A DNA stretch of 64,000 nt from Candidatus Planktophila lacus (lineage in GTDB: Bacteria; Actinomycetota; Actinomycetes; Nanopelagicales; Nanopelagicaceae). Of the stretch, positions 7,797 through 25,012 are shown in pieces. Every line of letters starts with the position of its first letter. Positions within the stretch are counted from its first letter, which is position 1. Below the pieces are notes generated by a model, which was not told the DNA's origin, did no database searches, and saw only the letters and a list, made by a program, of their open reading frames with translations. Location of the stretch: the NCBI RefSeq assembly GCF_002287925.1, contig NZ_CP016769.1:310001-374000 (forward strand). The letters run 5' to 3'. The position numbers and the translations under genes were made by a program.

Positions 7797-7868
7797 GGGT
7801 GCTTAGCTCAGTGGTAGAGCGTCTCGTTTACACCGAGAATGTCGGGGGTTCGAAACCCTCAGCGCCCA
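7797..7868 (+). tRNA. tRNA-Val (anticodon TAC)
   Basis: A full cloverleaf can be drawn: acceptor GGGTGCT/AGCGCCC with one G-U pair, D arm GCTC...GAGC, anticodon stem TCTCG/CGAGA around loop TTTACAC (anticodon TAC), and T arm GGGGG-TTCGAAA-CCCTC. The discriminator is A and CCA is not encoded (the sequence continues CAG). Its last 18 nt plus one base recur at 9222-9240. Confidence 0.95.
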
Positions 7869-21175: not shown

Positions 21176-21529
21176 GAAGAGTCGCCCGGATCACCGCGTT
21201 GTAGCAATACACCGAGGAAAGTCCGGACTTCGCAGAGCAAGGTGGTGGGTAACGCCCACCCGGAGAAATCCGCGGGATTAGTGCCACAGAAAATAGACCG
21301 CACATGCAAATGTGTAAGGGTGAAACGGTGGTGTAAGAGACCACCAGTATTTGTAGTGATGCAGATAGCTTGGTAAACCCCACCTGAAGCAAGACCACGC
21401 AGATGGCGTTTGAGAACTGCTCGTTCGAGCCATCGGGTAGGTTGCTTGAATCTGTAAGTAATTACAGATCTAGATGGATGGTGATCCGTTCGCAAGAACG
21501 ACAGGATCCGGCTTACAGGGCGACTCTTC
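21176..21529 (+). ncRNA. rnpB: RNase P RNA, class A
   Basis: About 354 nt, the catalytic RNA that matures tRNA 5' ends. The termini form a perfect 12-bp P1 helix (GAAGAGTCGCCC at 21176-21187 with GGGCGACTCTTC at 21518-21529). Conserved core pieces are present in order: GAGGAAAGTCCGGACT near 21214 (P4/CR-I), GGGTAACGCCC, the GTGCCACAGAAAA region, GGTGAAACGGTGG, GGTAAACCCCACC near 21372, and ACAGGATCCGGCTTACAG near the 3' end (P4 3' strand). Its 3' end is duplicated twice downstream, see the repeats at 21984 and 23061. Confidence 0.97.
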
Positions 21530-21533
21530 TTTA
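21505..21533 (+). repeat. rnpB 3'-end direct repeat, copy 1 (inside rnpB)
   Basis: The last 25 nt of rnpB plus four bases. Copy 3 at 23061-23089 matches 27 of 29 positions; copy 2 at 21984-22000 keeps the terminal 13 nt exactly (CGACTCTTCTTTA). Confidence 0.75.
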
Positions 21534-21593
21534 CATTTAGTTACTACGAGTAACTTCATTAATGTGTCATAATTCAGTAACGCTTGTTTGGTA

Positions 21594-21633
21594 GCAAAAG
21601 GGACTTGGTTAAATACCAAGTCCCTTTTGCTTT
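21594..21633 (+). terminator. intrinsic terminator downstream of rnpB
   Basis: A perfect 16-bp inverted repeat: GCAAAAGGGACTTGGT (21594-21609), loop TAAAT, then its complement (21615-21630) and a short T run. A degenerate second copy lies 96 bp downstream. Confidence 0.85.
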
Positions 21634-21689
21634 ACTGCAAATGGCCTAGTTCTATGCAATAGTTCGAGCACGGTGGTTTGGTAGTAAAT

Positions 21690-21725
21690 GGGAGTTGGCG
21701 TCATGCCGGCTCCCTTTTGCTTTTT
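21690..21725 (+). terminator. second intrinsic terminator, related to the first
   Basis: GGGAGTTGGC (21690-21699) pairs with GCCGGCTCCC (21705-21714), two G-U pairs, followed by TTTTGCTTTTT. The flanks (GTTTGGTAG before, CCCTTTTGCTTT after) match those of the terminator at 21594, so this is a diverged duplicate. Confidence 0.75.
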
Positions 21726-21799
21726 ATAAAACTTTATACACAGGTGACTTACTCACTTCTCTTTAGCGCCAGCTTTAGATCTAACTTCGCTCCCGTGTT

Positions 21800-21874
21800 G
21801 GGGGCGTGTTGTAATTGGCAGCCTGGTCGTTTACCAAACAAGCGGAGCGGGTTCGAATCCCGTCGCCTCCACCA
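21800..21874 (+). tRNA. tRNA-like gene, identity uncertain, possibly degenerate
   Basis: The acceptor stem GGGGGCG/CGCCTCC (one G-U) and T arm GCGGG-TTCGAAT-CCCGT are sound and ACCA follows, so CCA is encoded. D-loop bases AATTGGCA fit a tRNA. However the D stem has two mismatches and the anticodon stem is poor: the best alignment gives loop TTACCAA (anticodon ACC) with two mismatched pairs, while another folding gives a 5-nt loop around GTT. Neither is a normal bacterial tRNA. Unlike tRNA-Val at 7797, it encodes CCA, which suggests foreign origin. It lies between copies 1 and 2 of the rnpB 3' repeat. Confidence 0.5.
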
Positions 21875-21942
21875 CAGTCTTAACTGTTTCAATTCGATCT
21901 ATTGGTAATGGTCAAATGAGTTGGAGTAGATTTGCATGGGAG

Positions 21943-21966
21943 GGCCTCGAGAGATCGGGGCCTTTT
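21943..21966 (+). terminator. intrinsic terminator after the tRNA-like gene
   Basis: GGCCTCGA (21943-21950), GAGA tetraloop, TCGGGGCC (21955-21962), then TTTT. Eight base pairs including one G-U. Confidence 0.7.
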
Positions 21967-21983
21967 CCAATTTCCCGACTTTT

Positions 21984-22000
21984 AGGCCGACTCTTCTTTA
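21984..22000 (+). repeat. rnpB 3'-end direct repeat, copy 2 (short)
   Basis: AGGCCGACTCTTCTTTA; the last 13 nt are identical to rnpB 21521-21533 and the preceding bases differ at one position in the P1 strand. It separates the tRNA-like/terminator segment from the epimerase gene. Confidence 0.6.
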
Positions 22001-22027
22001 TTAGTGATTTGTGGAATGATTTCCTAT

Positions 22028-23062
22028 ATGACCAGAGTTCTTCTTACAGGTGCAAGTGGCTATATTGGCAAACACATCACACTCCAGCTTCTCAATCAGG
22101 GATATGAAGTTCGTGCTTCAGTCCGCAAGCTTTCAAAGTCATCAGAAGTTCGCGATGCAGTCGCGCCGCATCTTTTAGAAATTTCATACCTAGATTCTCG
22201 TCTAACATTTATTGAACTCGACCTTGAGAAAGATTCGGGTTGGAATTCTGCCCTCAAAGATATTGATGTGTTGATGCACACTGCATCGCCCTTTCCACTC
22301 ACTTCGCCCAAAGACGAGAATGATTTGATCCGCCCTGCAGTCGAAGGCACTTTGAGAGCACTACGTGCTGCAAAAAATTCTGGAGTCAAGCGAGTAATTC
22401 TGACTTCATCGGTCGCGGCAATCTATGGCCGTGAGTTAACTTCTGGCGCTTTGGCCTATGACGAAACAATGTGGACAGATGTTGAGCATCCAGTTGGGCG
22501 TGTGGCTTATACAAAGTCTAAGACTTTGGCTGAAAAGGCAGCTTGGGATTTCATCAAAAGTGAAGCTCCTGAAATTGCCCTGACAACCATTAATCCAGTT
22601 CTAGTGCTTGGTGCACCTTTAGATAAGAACTTTGGTTCATCAATTTCGCTTGTGGAAAGAGTATTAAACGGAAGTGATCCGATGTTGCCAGATCTAAAAT
22701 TTGCAATCGTAGATGTACAAGATGTTGCCAAGATGCATGTTTACGCAATCAAGAGTGAAAATACAAAAAACGAACGCATAATCGCTTCCTCAGAAACCAG
22801 ATCATTTGTTGAGATAGCGAAGTTTTTAAAGAGCTTGTATCCAAAGAGTAAGGTCAAGTCAGCGCAGGCGCCCACATTCATTATTCGCTTGCTTTCACTA
22901 TTCGATGGTTCTATAAAGCCGATTCTGCCTCAACTAGGAAAGCCCATGAATGTTAGTGGGTCCAAGGCTCAGCGCTTGTTGAACATTAGCTTTATTCCTG
23001 TTGAAGTCACCTTAAAAGAATCTGCGGATTATTTGATTAAGAATGGCTTTATCAAAGGCTGA
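22028..23062 (+). CDS. NAD-dependent epimerase/dehydratase, dihydroflavonol-reductase-like
   Basis: An extended short-chain dehydrogenase of 344 residues: Rossmann motif TGASGYIGKHI at the N-terminus, DLEKDSGW (adenine-binding Asp), HTASPF, ILTSSVAAIYG and the catalytic YTKSK (Tyr-x-x-x-Lys). This subfamily includes dihydroflavonol-4-reductase and cinnamoyl-CoA reductase-like oxidoreductases; the bacterial substrates are mostly unknown. The ATG at 22028 begins just before the Rossmann strand; a longer start at 22004 adds eight unconvincing residues. The gene exactly fills the space between copies 2 and 3 of the rnpB 3' repeat, and its TGA overlaps copy 3, so it looks like inserted cargo. Confidence 0.85.
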   Translation: MTRVLLTGASGYIGKHITLQLLNQGYEVRASVRKLSKSSEVRDAVAPHLLEISYLDSRLTFIELDLEKDSGWNSALKDIDVLMHTASPFPLTSPKDENDLIRPAVEGTLRALRAAKNSGVKRVILTSSVAAIYGRELTSGALAYDETMWTDVEHPVGRVAYTKSKTLAEKAAWDFIKSEAPEIALTTINPVLVLGAPLDKNFGSSISLVERVLNGSDPMLPDLKFAIVDVQDVAKMHVYAIKSENTKNERIIASSETRSFVEIAKFLKSLYPKSKVKSAQAPTFIIRLLSLFDGSIKPILPQLGKPMNVSGSKAQRLLNISFIPVEVTLKESADYLIKNGFIKG

Positions 23063-23089
23063 TCCGGCCTAAAGGGCGACTCTTCTTTA
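23061..23089 (+). repeat. rnpB 3'-end direct repeat, copy 3
   Basis: Matches rnpB 21505-21533 at 27 of 29 positions and keeps the whole 12-nt P1 strand GGGCGACTCTTC intact (23074-23085). It spans the stop of the epimerase gene and the stop codon of the convergent LuxR-type gene. Confidence 0.75.
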
Positions 23090-24679
23090 GATAATCAGAT
23101 TTTCTTTGGCCTTCTTGGCGGCTTCACCTCTGCCACTTACGCCTAATTTTTTATAAATATTTCGCAGGTGAGTTTTCATCGTGTTCTTCGAGATGTGCAG
23201 AATTTGGCCAATTTCTGAGATCGAATTCTCCGATACTAGGTATCTCAAGACTTCAATCTCGCGCCCTGTTAGTTGTTCTCCAGTAAATTTCATTAACCGG
23301 TTACGTTCTTGAATCCGGTCAATCGCCAACCTGCTTAAGGACTCCAACCAGATTGACTTCTTCGTAGAAGATAAATCGATGATTGCTTCCAGAGTTGAAT
23401 TCTCTTGCCGTAGGAAGATTTCTTGCGCCCCGACCTCTTCGCCTTTGGCAAGAGCGATCTTGAGGTACTCACGCTGTTTCTTTGCACCTTCATCTTTTAT
23501 TTTAGCCAGAGCCAAATTCTTCCTAATTACCTCGTGAGGCGTATTTTCTGAGAGTTTCTTTATCTCGCTCACATCACTGAGTTTTGAATTTCTTAAAACA
23601 CTTTTACCCAGCTGTTGTAAGTATTGAATTTCTGGATTTCGCTTAACAATCGTGTCGATTCTGCCCAGATCCTTTGACTGATTCTTTGCTAGTAATTCTC
23701 CCAAATCGACTAACCAGGTCATCGCCTTTAGATCTGGATCAAGTAGAAGTTCATTCCTCAATCGAGCGACCTTTGTTGAAATTTTATCTTGGCTATTAGG
23801 AATACGTGACAAAATTCTAATCTCACCAACTAGGCAAAGATAGTTGATAAAGATCATCCTATTTTCCTGAGCCTCTTTTCCTAACTTCACCATTTCATCA
23901 AGTGCTTCGTCAATCATTGAAAATTCATATAGGCAGCGGATTAATACAAATCTACAATCAAACGGTGATGCGATTCCAACTCGACCAGAAGCCTCTTCAA
24001 GTGCAATTGTGGATTTGGCTAACTCGTAGGCTTTCTTATACTCACCTTGCGAGAGTAATTGCATAGATTTAATCGCAGATTTGGCTTGATCTAAAACACT
24101 TAAGTTATCGGGATTATCGATGTGCAAAATATCTTCAGCGCATTCATTTAGCTTATTAGTATCAGATGTAACCAGAGCGATACAAGCAACTAGCCGAATC
24201 AATCGGCCCCTATCCATCGGATCTAACGTTCCACTTTTAATTGGAGAATTGATTGAAATTTCGGCGTGTTTTAGCGCTAATTGATGGTTACCGCTATGAA
24301 AATTCACATATGCTCGACAGAGATTGCTTATCTGATCTACCCAGACTTCAATCGGATTACCTTTAGTACTTTTCTCTAGTTCATCGAGCAAGGTGGTGCA
24401 TTTTCTAAAATCCAAATCAATCAAATTGCCAATGGCTTCAAATCCCCTTGCCATGAACAAGCTATTTTCTGATTCATCAAGAGAGCTCTTTGCATACTCG
24501 ATGAATTCTTTTCCTTGTCCAGTTAGCGACAACTCCGCCATTCGGGTTAAGTAGAGGCGATAGAAAAAATCTAAATCATTCTTTTCAATCGCAGTCTCAA
24601 TAATTTTTTGGACGCTGCTGGCAAAGCCCGGGAGGGGTGATTTGGAAGCGTCGCTACTCACCCTCCTAGGGTGAGGCAT
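23087..24679 (-). CDS. large LuxR-type (LuxR C-terminal HTH) transcriptional regulator
   Basis: A 530-residue protein with a C-terminal LuxR/GerE helix-turn-helix, residues about 468-525 (LTGREIEVLRYLVSENSISEIGQI, then KNTMKTHLRNIYKKLGV). The preceding 450 residues are helical, leucine- and lysine-rich and look like tetratricopeptide-type repeats, as in MalT/LAL-like regulators, but no N-terminal NTPase Walker motif is visible. The gene is visibly A+T-richer than its neighbours. Its stop codon is the last three bases of rnpB repeat copy 3. Its start region sits in a cluster of TCACCC/GGGTGA inverted repeats, suggesting autoregulation; the ATG at 24677-24679 is used, with GTG at codon 7 as alternative. 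Confidence 0.8.
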   Translation of the reverse strand: MPHPRRVSSDASKSPLPGFASSVQKIIETAIEKNDLDFFYRLYLTRMAELSLTGQGKEFIEYAKSSLDESENSLFMARGFEAIGNLIDLDFRKCTTLLDELEKSTKGNPIEVWVDQISNLCRAYVNFHSGNHQLALKHAEISINSPIKSGTLDPMDRGRLIRLVACIALVTSDTNKLNECAEDILHIDNPDNLSVLDQAKSAIKSMQLLSQGEYKKAYELAKSTIALEEASGRVGIASPFDCRFVLIRCLYEFSMIDEALDEMVKLGKEAQENRMIFINYLCLVGEIRILSRIPNSQDKISTKVARLRNELLLDPDLKAMTWLVDLGELLAKNQSKDLGRIDTIVKRNPEIQYLQQLGKSVLRNSKLSDVSEIKKLSENTPHEVIRKNLALAKIKDEGAKKQREYLKIALAKGEEVGAQEIFLRQENSTLEAIIDLSSTKKSIWLESLSRLAIDRIQERNRLMKFTGEQLTGREIEVLRYLVSENSISEIGQILHISKNTMKTHLRNIYKKLGVSGRGEAAKKAKENLII

Positions 24680-24758
24680 TTAGGGAGTTTTTTATAGGTG
24701 ATTCTCAGCGTAGTGGGGTGATAAAAAGGGGCGATTTGTCAGTCACCCCGCTGGGTGA
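24657..24758. promoter_or_regulatory. cluster of TCACCC/GGGTGA inverted repeats (putative operators)
   Basis: Three elements share the half-site GGGTGA: a perfect palindrome CTCACCCT-CCT-AGGGTGAG at 24657-24675 over the LuxR start, a single GGGTGA at 24716-24721, and TCACCC-CGCT-GGGTGA at 24743-24758. The extended GGGTGAGGC occurs twice in direct orientation. They lie between the LuxR-type gene and the divergent DUF4287 gene, so either or both may be controlled. Confidence 0.5.
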
Positions 24759-24799
24759 GGCTCTGGCTTACGGAGCGAGAGGTCTTCTACGATTTAGCA

Positions 24800-25012
24800 A
24801 TGGCTGAGAAAAAGGTAATGGGTCCGGCATCTTACTTTCCATCCATAGAGAAGAAGTATGGAAAGCCGATCGAACATTGGATGAAGGAACTCAAGAAGGT
24901 TTCCAAGCTTGCTCACATGGAACAGGTGGCGCACCTGAAGGAAAAGTTTGAAATGGGACACGGCCATGCAAATGCAATCGTGGCGGTATTTCGACAAAAG
25001 AACGGCCTGTAA
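24800..25012 (+). CDS. DUF4287 domain small protein
   Basis: A 70-residue protein with the DUF4287 pattern: PASYFPSIEKKYGKPIEHWM at the N-terminus and HLKEKFEMGHGHANAIVA at the end. Function is unknown; the family often accompanies DUF5655 or similar small proteins. The ATG at 24800 starts the conserved region; upstream in-frame codons run into the operator-like repeats. It is 4 nt from the DUF2200 gene and probably cotranscribed. Confidence 0.75.
   Translation: MAEKKVMGPASYFPSIEKKYGKPIEHWMKELKKVSKLAHMEQVAHLKEKFEMGHGHANAIVAVFRQKNGL

Follow-up and report, generated by a model that had tools for sequence, protein, structure and literature searches.

Is the gene at positions 21800-21874 of the window, by which we mean the whole stretch of 64,000 nucleotides of Candidatus Planktophila lacus DNA analysed here, a tRNA gene, the remains of one, or a part of something else? 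The original prediction had placed three readings side by side: a tRNA carried by mobile DNA, a decayed tRNA, or a tRNA mimic that serves as an attachment (att) site or regulatory RNA. The question concerns two nested features:

21800..21874 (+): tRNA-like domain with invariant G3:U70, A73 and an encoded CCA
21825..21843 (+): anticodon arm, GGTCGT-TTACCAA-ACAAGC; the antisense target is its loop plus the 3' strand at 21838-21843

A Gly tRNA with the anticodon ACC was placed at exactly 21800-21874 (+) by ARAGORN, and the Rfam tRNA model scored the interval at 36.5 bits (gathering threshold 29), with the broken pairs located in the D and anticodon stems. The proposed covariance model run thus returned a score and ARAGORN an isotype, and the picture of sound acceptor and T arms and an encoded CCA next to poor D and anticodon arms was borne out. 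At 36.5 bits the interval still folds as the cloverleaf of an elongator tRNA, yet it lies below the 47-74 bits of the resident tRNAs (69 for the tRNA-Val at 7797) and ranks weakest among the 41 tRNA matches of the genome. Identity and anticodon do not agree as they should in an elongator tRNA, since alanine identity (G3:U70 and A73) is set against the Gly anticodon ACC; G3:U70 is found in 40/40 relatives and A73 in 39/40, the same as in the resident tRNA-Ala and tmRNA. Acceptor, T and D arms are almost without variation among the 40 relatives. The D arm, defective by the broken pairs in the Rfam model, also pairs in a shifted register (GUUGU/GCAGC). The statement that no five-pair anticodon stem can form needs correcting, since a 6-bp stem exists (positions 26-31/39-44), in which 6/6 pairs covary among the 40 relatives, usually with 1-2 mismatches; at least one mismatch is retained in 39 of 41 stems. 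The encoded CCA cannot serve as a foreign mark, because about nine of the resident tRNAs recovered carry it too (His, Pro, Gly-TCC, Met, Arg-CCT, Cys, Asn, Leu-TAG and one Val). Rescue of a missing isotype was ruled out, since the genome already has its own Gly tRNAs (GCC and TCC) and Ala tRNAs (TGC and GGC). The domain resembles the tRNA-like domain of tmRNA in its alanine acceptor stem with G3:U70 and its weak D arm, whereas the tag reading frame and full tmRNA fold are absent. With the tmRNA model it reached 36.3 bits, below the cut-off, compared to 140 bits for the true tmRNA elsewhere in the genome; a split or second tmRNA was rejected because that tmRNA is complete and the match covers the tRNA-like ends (terminal 75 nt) only.

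The search for homologues that had been suggested was productive among acI bacteria and empty for phages and viral contigs. A 106-bp query had matches at 87-100% in eight genomes of the genus, that of the window among them, with 87-99% over 99 bp, a conservation greatly in excess of chance. An exact search for GGGGGCGTGTTGTAATTGGYAGCCT returned 38 contigs, almost all of them freshwater acI/Nanopelagicaceae by their label or recognisably so; 50 distinct relatives were found in Nanopelagicaceae (acI). Within the genus, a covariance model (R1), built from 40 sequences, located strong copies in ~38 of 135 genomes, and it found others in two further genera of the same family. Family members score about 170-194 bits with their own model, and matches below ~60 bits in the class-wide R1 search were ordinary tRNAs. 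Conservation and the R1 distribution argue for a patchy, family-specific element and not a degenerating tRNA. No homologue was found in phages, nine motif matches in viral contigs being unrelated, and a phage tRNA was ruled out on these grounds; plasmids gave no homologue, a single weak Nocardia match reaching only 10% coverage. No specific Rfam family was found for the module, and the window contained no T-box match at Rfam gathering thresholds. Seven contigs titled Bifidobacterium breve MAG (L056, L062, L063, L067, L072, L077 and L087) contain acI sequence and look like mislabelled freshwater MAGs.

Conservation is not confined to the tRNA-like domain; downstream it reaches ~90 nt past the gene, to a terminator. 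The flanking features are:

21782..21799 (+): conserved leader TAACTTCGCTCCCGTGTT, near invariant in 40 relatives and the upstream limit of conservation
21882..21931 (+): trailer hairpin P3, eight pairs with compensatory changes
21942..21966 (+): intrinsic terminator GGGCCTCGAGAGATCGGGGCCTTTT, whose stem covaries in eight genomes

Comparison of the relatives shows that the predicted transcript could fold on itself in two ways. The trailer loop TATTGGTAAT (21900-21909) is the complement of the anticodon loop (as RNA, UAUUGGUA is complementary to UACCAA), and GUG.U of the leader is pairable with A.CAC of the tRNA-like 3' end, the pairs being kept at 99.5%. A further helix, P1, between leader 21790-21797 and trailer 21935-21942 is 92% paired with weak covariation, and may lie outside the transcript; TAACTT in the leader may be a -10 promoter element.

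Upstream of the leader, the following features were identified:

21540..21554 (no strand): palindrome GTTACTACGAGTAAC, upstream of the first sRNA unit, a possible operator
21580..21633 (+): sRNA unit 1, cognate; predicted start ~21580, extended -10 TGTCATAAT
21670..21724 (+): sRNA unit 2, non-cognate; guide GGTGGTTTGGTA

Across the family, the tRNA-like gene is preceded on its own strand by one or two such units, ~125 and often ~215 bp upstream. Each unit encodes an sRNA of roughly 50 nt and consists of an extended -10 (55/61 units, mostly at one fixed spacing), the sequence N6-TTGGTAGTAA and a terminator hairpin, in that order. At the predicted 5' end of the sRNA lies the guide, N6TTGGTA, which reads as the reverse complement of the loop and 3' stem strand of the anticodon arm. 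Unit 1 carries the guide CGCTTGTTTGGTA at 21581-21593 and a terminator hairpin at 21600-21629, and is predicted to pair with its target over 13 nt of Watson-Crick pairs and one G:U (-22.1 kcal/mol). Unit 2 forms a weaker duplex with the target of its own module (-13.7 kcal/mol), and its guide fits tRNA-like RNAs with the 3' strand ACCACC in other genomes (L005/L070, L097). An TACTnnGAGTAA-like motif occurs in 35/44 first units. The palindrome before the first unit (GTTACTnCGAGTAAC, 21540-21554) and a half-like site before the tRNA-like gene in relatives (GTAACTTC, 21782-21790) suggest a regulator common to both kinds of gene. A reading frame in the sRNA unit (LVVIGTWL...) was discarded, as neither its frame nor its length is conserved, judged by eye.

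The main result is that guide and target diversify together between strains, as shown by comparison of 50 distinct modules, 47 of them with sRNA units. The variable target, the 3' strand of the anticodon stem, takes 22 distinct sequences and varies independently of the rest of the element; between this genome (G000) and another of the same species (G085), both guide and target differ. The variable 6 nt are matched exactly by the guide in 34/47 modules, compared to a mean of 3.5 and a maximum of 11 with shuffled partners, and full pairing including G:U occurs in 41/47 (shuffled mean 7.0, maximum 17); the 5000 shuffles ignore relatedness, and type-A relatives cluster in one family. The longest Watson-Crick run averaged 12.0 nt compared to 7.8 for shuffled partners, and the duplex energy -23.8 compared to -16.5 kcal/mol. 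In the seven modules that pair only by way of G:U, the guide departs each time by an A -> G change opposite U, a pattern that favours pairing as RNA over identity at the DNA level. Over the six positions of the 3' strand, the sRNA pairs 5.8 on average and the tRNA-like RNA's own 5' strand 4.7. Of the 22 non-cognate units, 15 have a guide that suits the target of a different module, where the letter-shuffled control gave 0.4 and at most 3. Among the 50 modules, a fully paired cognate sRNA is absent in six that have units, and L149 has no visible unit.

Divergent modules extend these observations. Where the anticodon loop changes from ACC to GCC (L148, L152, L153), the trailer loop changes from GGTA to GGCA and the sRNA from TTTGGTAG to TTTGGCAG, and in L148 a 3' end CCG is accompanied by GCG in place of GTG in the leader. 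These are compensatory changes for all three predicted interactions, in few independent cases. In the canonical register the anticodons of divergent modules read Ala or Val; L148 has U3:G70, and L150, L151 and L154 have U73. The latter three (L150 and L151 from genome G242, L154 from G076, directly 3' of rnpB) form a second class with Val or Ala anticodons, in which the sRNAs are longer and match the 3' end of the acceptor by 12-13 complementary nt, among them UGG facing CC(A/G). In these three cases, in which the last bases of the L154 match were judged by eye, the pairing partner is thus conserved and the paired region different. Another locus (L081:2870-3290) has a well-formed tRNA-Val (UAC) of different sequence as its body, together with the usual sRNA unit and trailer and without a matching guide. 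Truncated modules were seen in L078 and L084:3150-3200, as expected for an element that is gained and lost.

The genomic setting bears on how such an element could travel. The features around the module are:

21178..21531 (+): rnpB, RNase P RNA class A (Rfam RF00010, 310.9 bits); its 3' end is the attachment site
21510..21532 (+): REP copy 1, the rnpB 3' end and left cassette boundary, GGCTTACAGGGCGACTCTTCTTT
21977..21999 (+): REP copy 2, degenerate, right cassette boundary, three mismatches to the rnpB 3' end
22028..23062 (+): next cassette, an NAD-dependent epimerase/dehydratase gene (Pfam PF01370, E 2.7e-25)
23066..23088 (+): REP copy 3, after the epimerase gene, one mismatch to GGCYTAYAGGGCGACTCTTCTTT

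A search of the genome for REP gave these three matches and no further copies. The RNA module fills ~470 bp with its sRNA gene(s), tRNA-like RNA, trailer hairpin and terminator. It is built like an integrase-mobilised cassette, flanked on either side by direct repeats of the 3' end of an RNA gene, and elsewhere a tyrosine integrase lies beside such repeats. In other acI genomes, the intervals between REP copies contain various genes or, at about 380-475 bp, nothing but the RNA module; in L104 a REP lies 35 bp beyond the end of a phage (tyrosine) integrase (E 1.3e-26), and in L108 one adjoins the C-terminus of an integrase. The cassette of G000 itself contains no integrase, so the module would be moved in trans, we infer by REP-associated integrases. 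Compared to G085, the chromosome is 91-94% identical on both flanks, which reach up to 21633 and resume at 24976, whereas between them identity falls to 85.5% in the tRNA-like part and other cassettes take the place of everything else; the epimerase/dehydratase gene is missing from the same place in G085. The interval 21532-24975 is a hypervariable island behind rnpB that holds mostly other genes in G085. With rnpB 3'-end copies flanking the module, similar intervals carrying unrelated genes or an integrase, and a region that differs within the species, the suggestion of a gene carried by mobile DNA is upheld. The same repeats dispose of the tRNA-like gene as the att site, since they belong to the rnpB 3' end. 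Partial extra rnpB copies lie beside the intact gene in two genomes (G060:C24:49741-49953 and G076:C6:12166-12338), probably left by repeated insertion. In genome G242 (another genus, 2.2 Mb), modules (L148-L151, L153, L183-L190) lie close to a repeat of another sequence, GCAATCCCACTAATCGTTAATGC, of which that genome has 12 copies; this may be a second array that uses a different attachment site. The arrangement resembles integrase islands at tRNA and tmRNA 3' ends (Islander, PMC4383910) and gene cassette arrays, which likewise have direct repeats of an RNA-gene 3' end and an integrase beside one; it differs in its rnpB target and in intervals of about 380-475 bp that hold only the RNA module.

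What the module does is a separate matter from its anatomy. That the tRNA-like gene belongs to a module of two RNAs is, from its architecture, highly probable. Our leading interpretation, to which we give a little less than even odds, is that it is the tRNA-like half of such a module on a small mobile cassette, forming an RNA-only addiction/immunity pair; an addiction function as such we regard as tentative. The tRNA-like RNA would be a stable effector, kept inactive as a precursor by internal pairings (trailer loop and leader) and as a mature RNA by the short-lived antisense sRNA, an allele-specific inhibitor. Upon loss of the cassette, the sRNA would decay first and the freed tRNA-like RNA would harm translation. 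In hok/sok type I systems, a stable target RNA is controlled by a labile antisense RNA and its precursor is locked by its own 3' end. The proposed scheme shares the stable target, labile antisense and self-locked precursor and differs in that the target is no mRNA and no toxin protein is encoded. The simplest harm would be misreading of Gly codons as Ala, through alanine identity (G3:U70, A73) combined with the anticodon ACC, and the main class suggests such Gly-to-Ala misreading. One mistranslation mechanism cannot serve all modules, since divergent classes lack alanine identity and have other anticodons, and the harm may lie elsewhere; leader-CCA pairing, moreover, could block maturation to a chargeable RNA.

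Co-diversification together with orphan partners aimed at other strains is a signature of toxin-immunity or incompatibility systems. By sequence, the module has a candidate RNA antitoxin complementary to the adjacent RNA, as is expected of type VIII systems. In CreTA and SdsR/RyeA (PMC10767807, PMC8501985), too, two small RNAs are encoded next to each other, and CreT acts on tRNA supply; CreA guides Cascade to transcriptional repression and SdsR and RyeA lie on opposite strands, whereas the pairing predicted here is direct, to a tRNA-shaped RNA from the same strand, and involves no CRISPR part. In its fullest form, which we advance with appreciable reserve, the proposal is one of polymorphic RNA-only addiction/immunity, with a tRNA-shaped toxin of mismatched identity, an allele-specific antisense RNA, rnpB cassettes below 500 bp, and orphan antisense RNAs that would confer immunity to rival cassettes.

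The main rival, which we consider rather unlikely, is a regulatory RNA switched by antisense pairing and not a toxin, in which the tRNA-like domain would be a structural or protein-binding module (for RNase P, EF-Tu or AlaRS) and the sRNA would switch the anticodon arm between a closed, trailer-paired and an open state, controlling genes of the cassette or host. Of the three original readings, the tRNA mimic acting as a regulatory RNA comes closest, having overlooked the upstream antisense units and the trailer hairpin. A precedent is tRNAOther of Bacillus cereus (PMC3399842), according to its abstract a pseudo-tRNA at a genomic island that is unused in translation and lies as a tRNA-like element in a larger regulatory RNA; that abstract describes neither a co-diversifying antisense sRNA nor trailer-anticodon pairing, and phylum and site are different. 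Conservation of the whole transcript from leader to trailer, beyond the tRNA part, is consistent with a regulatory RNA, as are the pairable leader and CCA end and the anticodons that differ among subfamilies. Regulation alone leaves unexplained why guide and target co-diversify fast and why second sRNAs fit other strains, and no conserved downstream gene is present.

Incompatibility or copy control, in the manner of ColE1 RNA I/RNA II, is improbable. In that pair, loop-loop antisense pairing, quickly changing specificity classes and tRNA-like folds occur together. Here, a transcript needed for excision, replication or transfer would be barred by a resident sRNA of the same specificity class, which agrees with kissing-type pairing of an anticodon-like loop and fast-changing specificity. 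Co-resident modules in L050, L056, L082 and G157 do have differing targets, but the pairs are few and not significant compared to random draws. The target can be recognised as a tRNA by its acceptor and T arms, there is no replicon and the cassette has no replication gene, and a tyrosine integrase suffices to explain integration.

Very improbable is an explanation at the level of DNA, in which the matched sequences, inverted repeats ~120-210 bp apart on a mobile element, would be recombination sites or products of gene conversion and RNA pairing would be incidental. Anticodon arms are common att cores. Departures from identity nevertheless preserve G:U pairing, the match starts close to where the sRNA is predicted to begin, downstream of a conserved promoter, covariation in the stem and trailer helices is that of RNA, and the att repeats lie elsewhere, at the rnpB 3' end. 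Finally, a decayed or ordinary tRNA gene, possibly phage-derived and without special function, has the low tRNA score and the truncated remnants (L078, L084) to recommend it and is refuted for the family, leaving it scarcely any probability, by the near-invariant arms of 50 distinct relatives and the compensatory changes in their covarying helices, by the missing homologues in phages and viral contigs, and by the resident Gly and Ala tRNAs.

As far as checked, the RNA-RNA module is real and undescribed; the literature searched, with subscription journals and preprints outside its scope, contained no description of such an RNA pair or of acI rnpB cassettes. The novelty lies in its anatomy; should it prove to be a type VIII addiction module, it would be a previously unseen form within that type. 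A tRNA-shaped RNA that co-evolves at its anticodon arm with an antisense RNA of its own would represent a kind of RNA-RNA pair not known before and would extend the short list of RNA toxins by a possible tRNA-based effector. The family would also provide, ready-made by nature, more than 20 RNA pairs, matched and mismatched, on which specificity can be tested directly, and the module would show how tiny mobile cassettes persist in highly streamlined, abundant freshwater bacteria.
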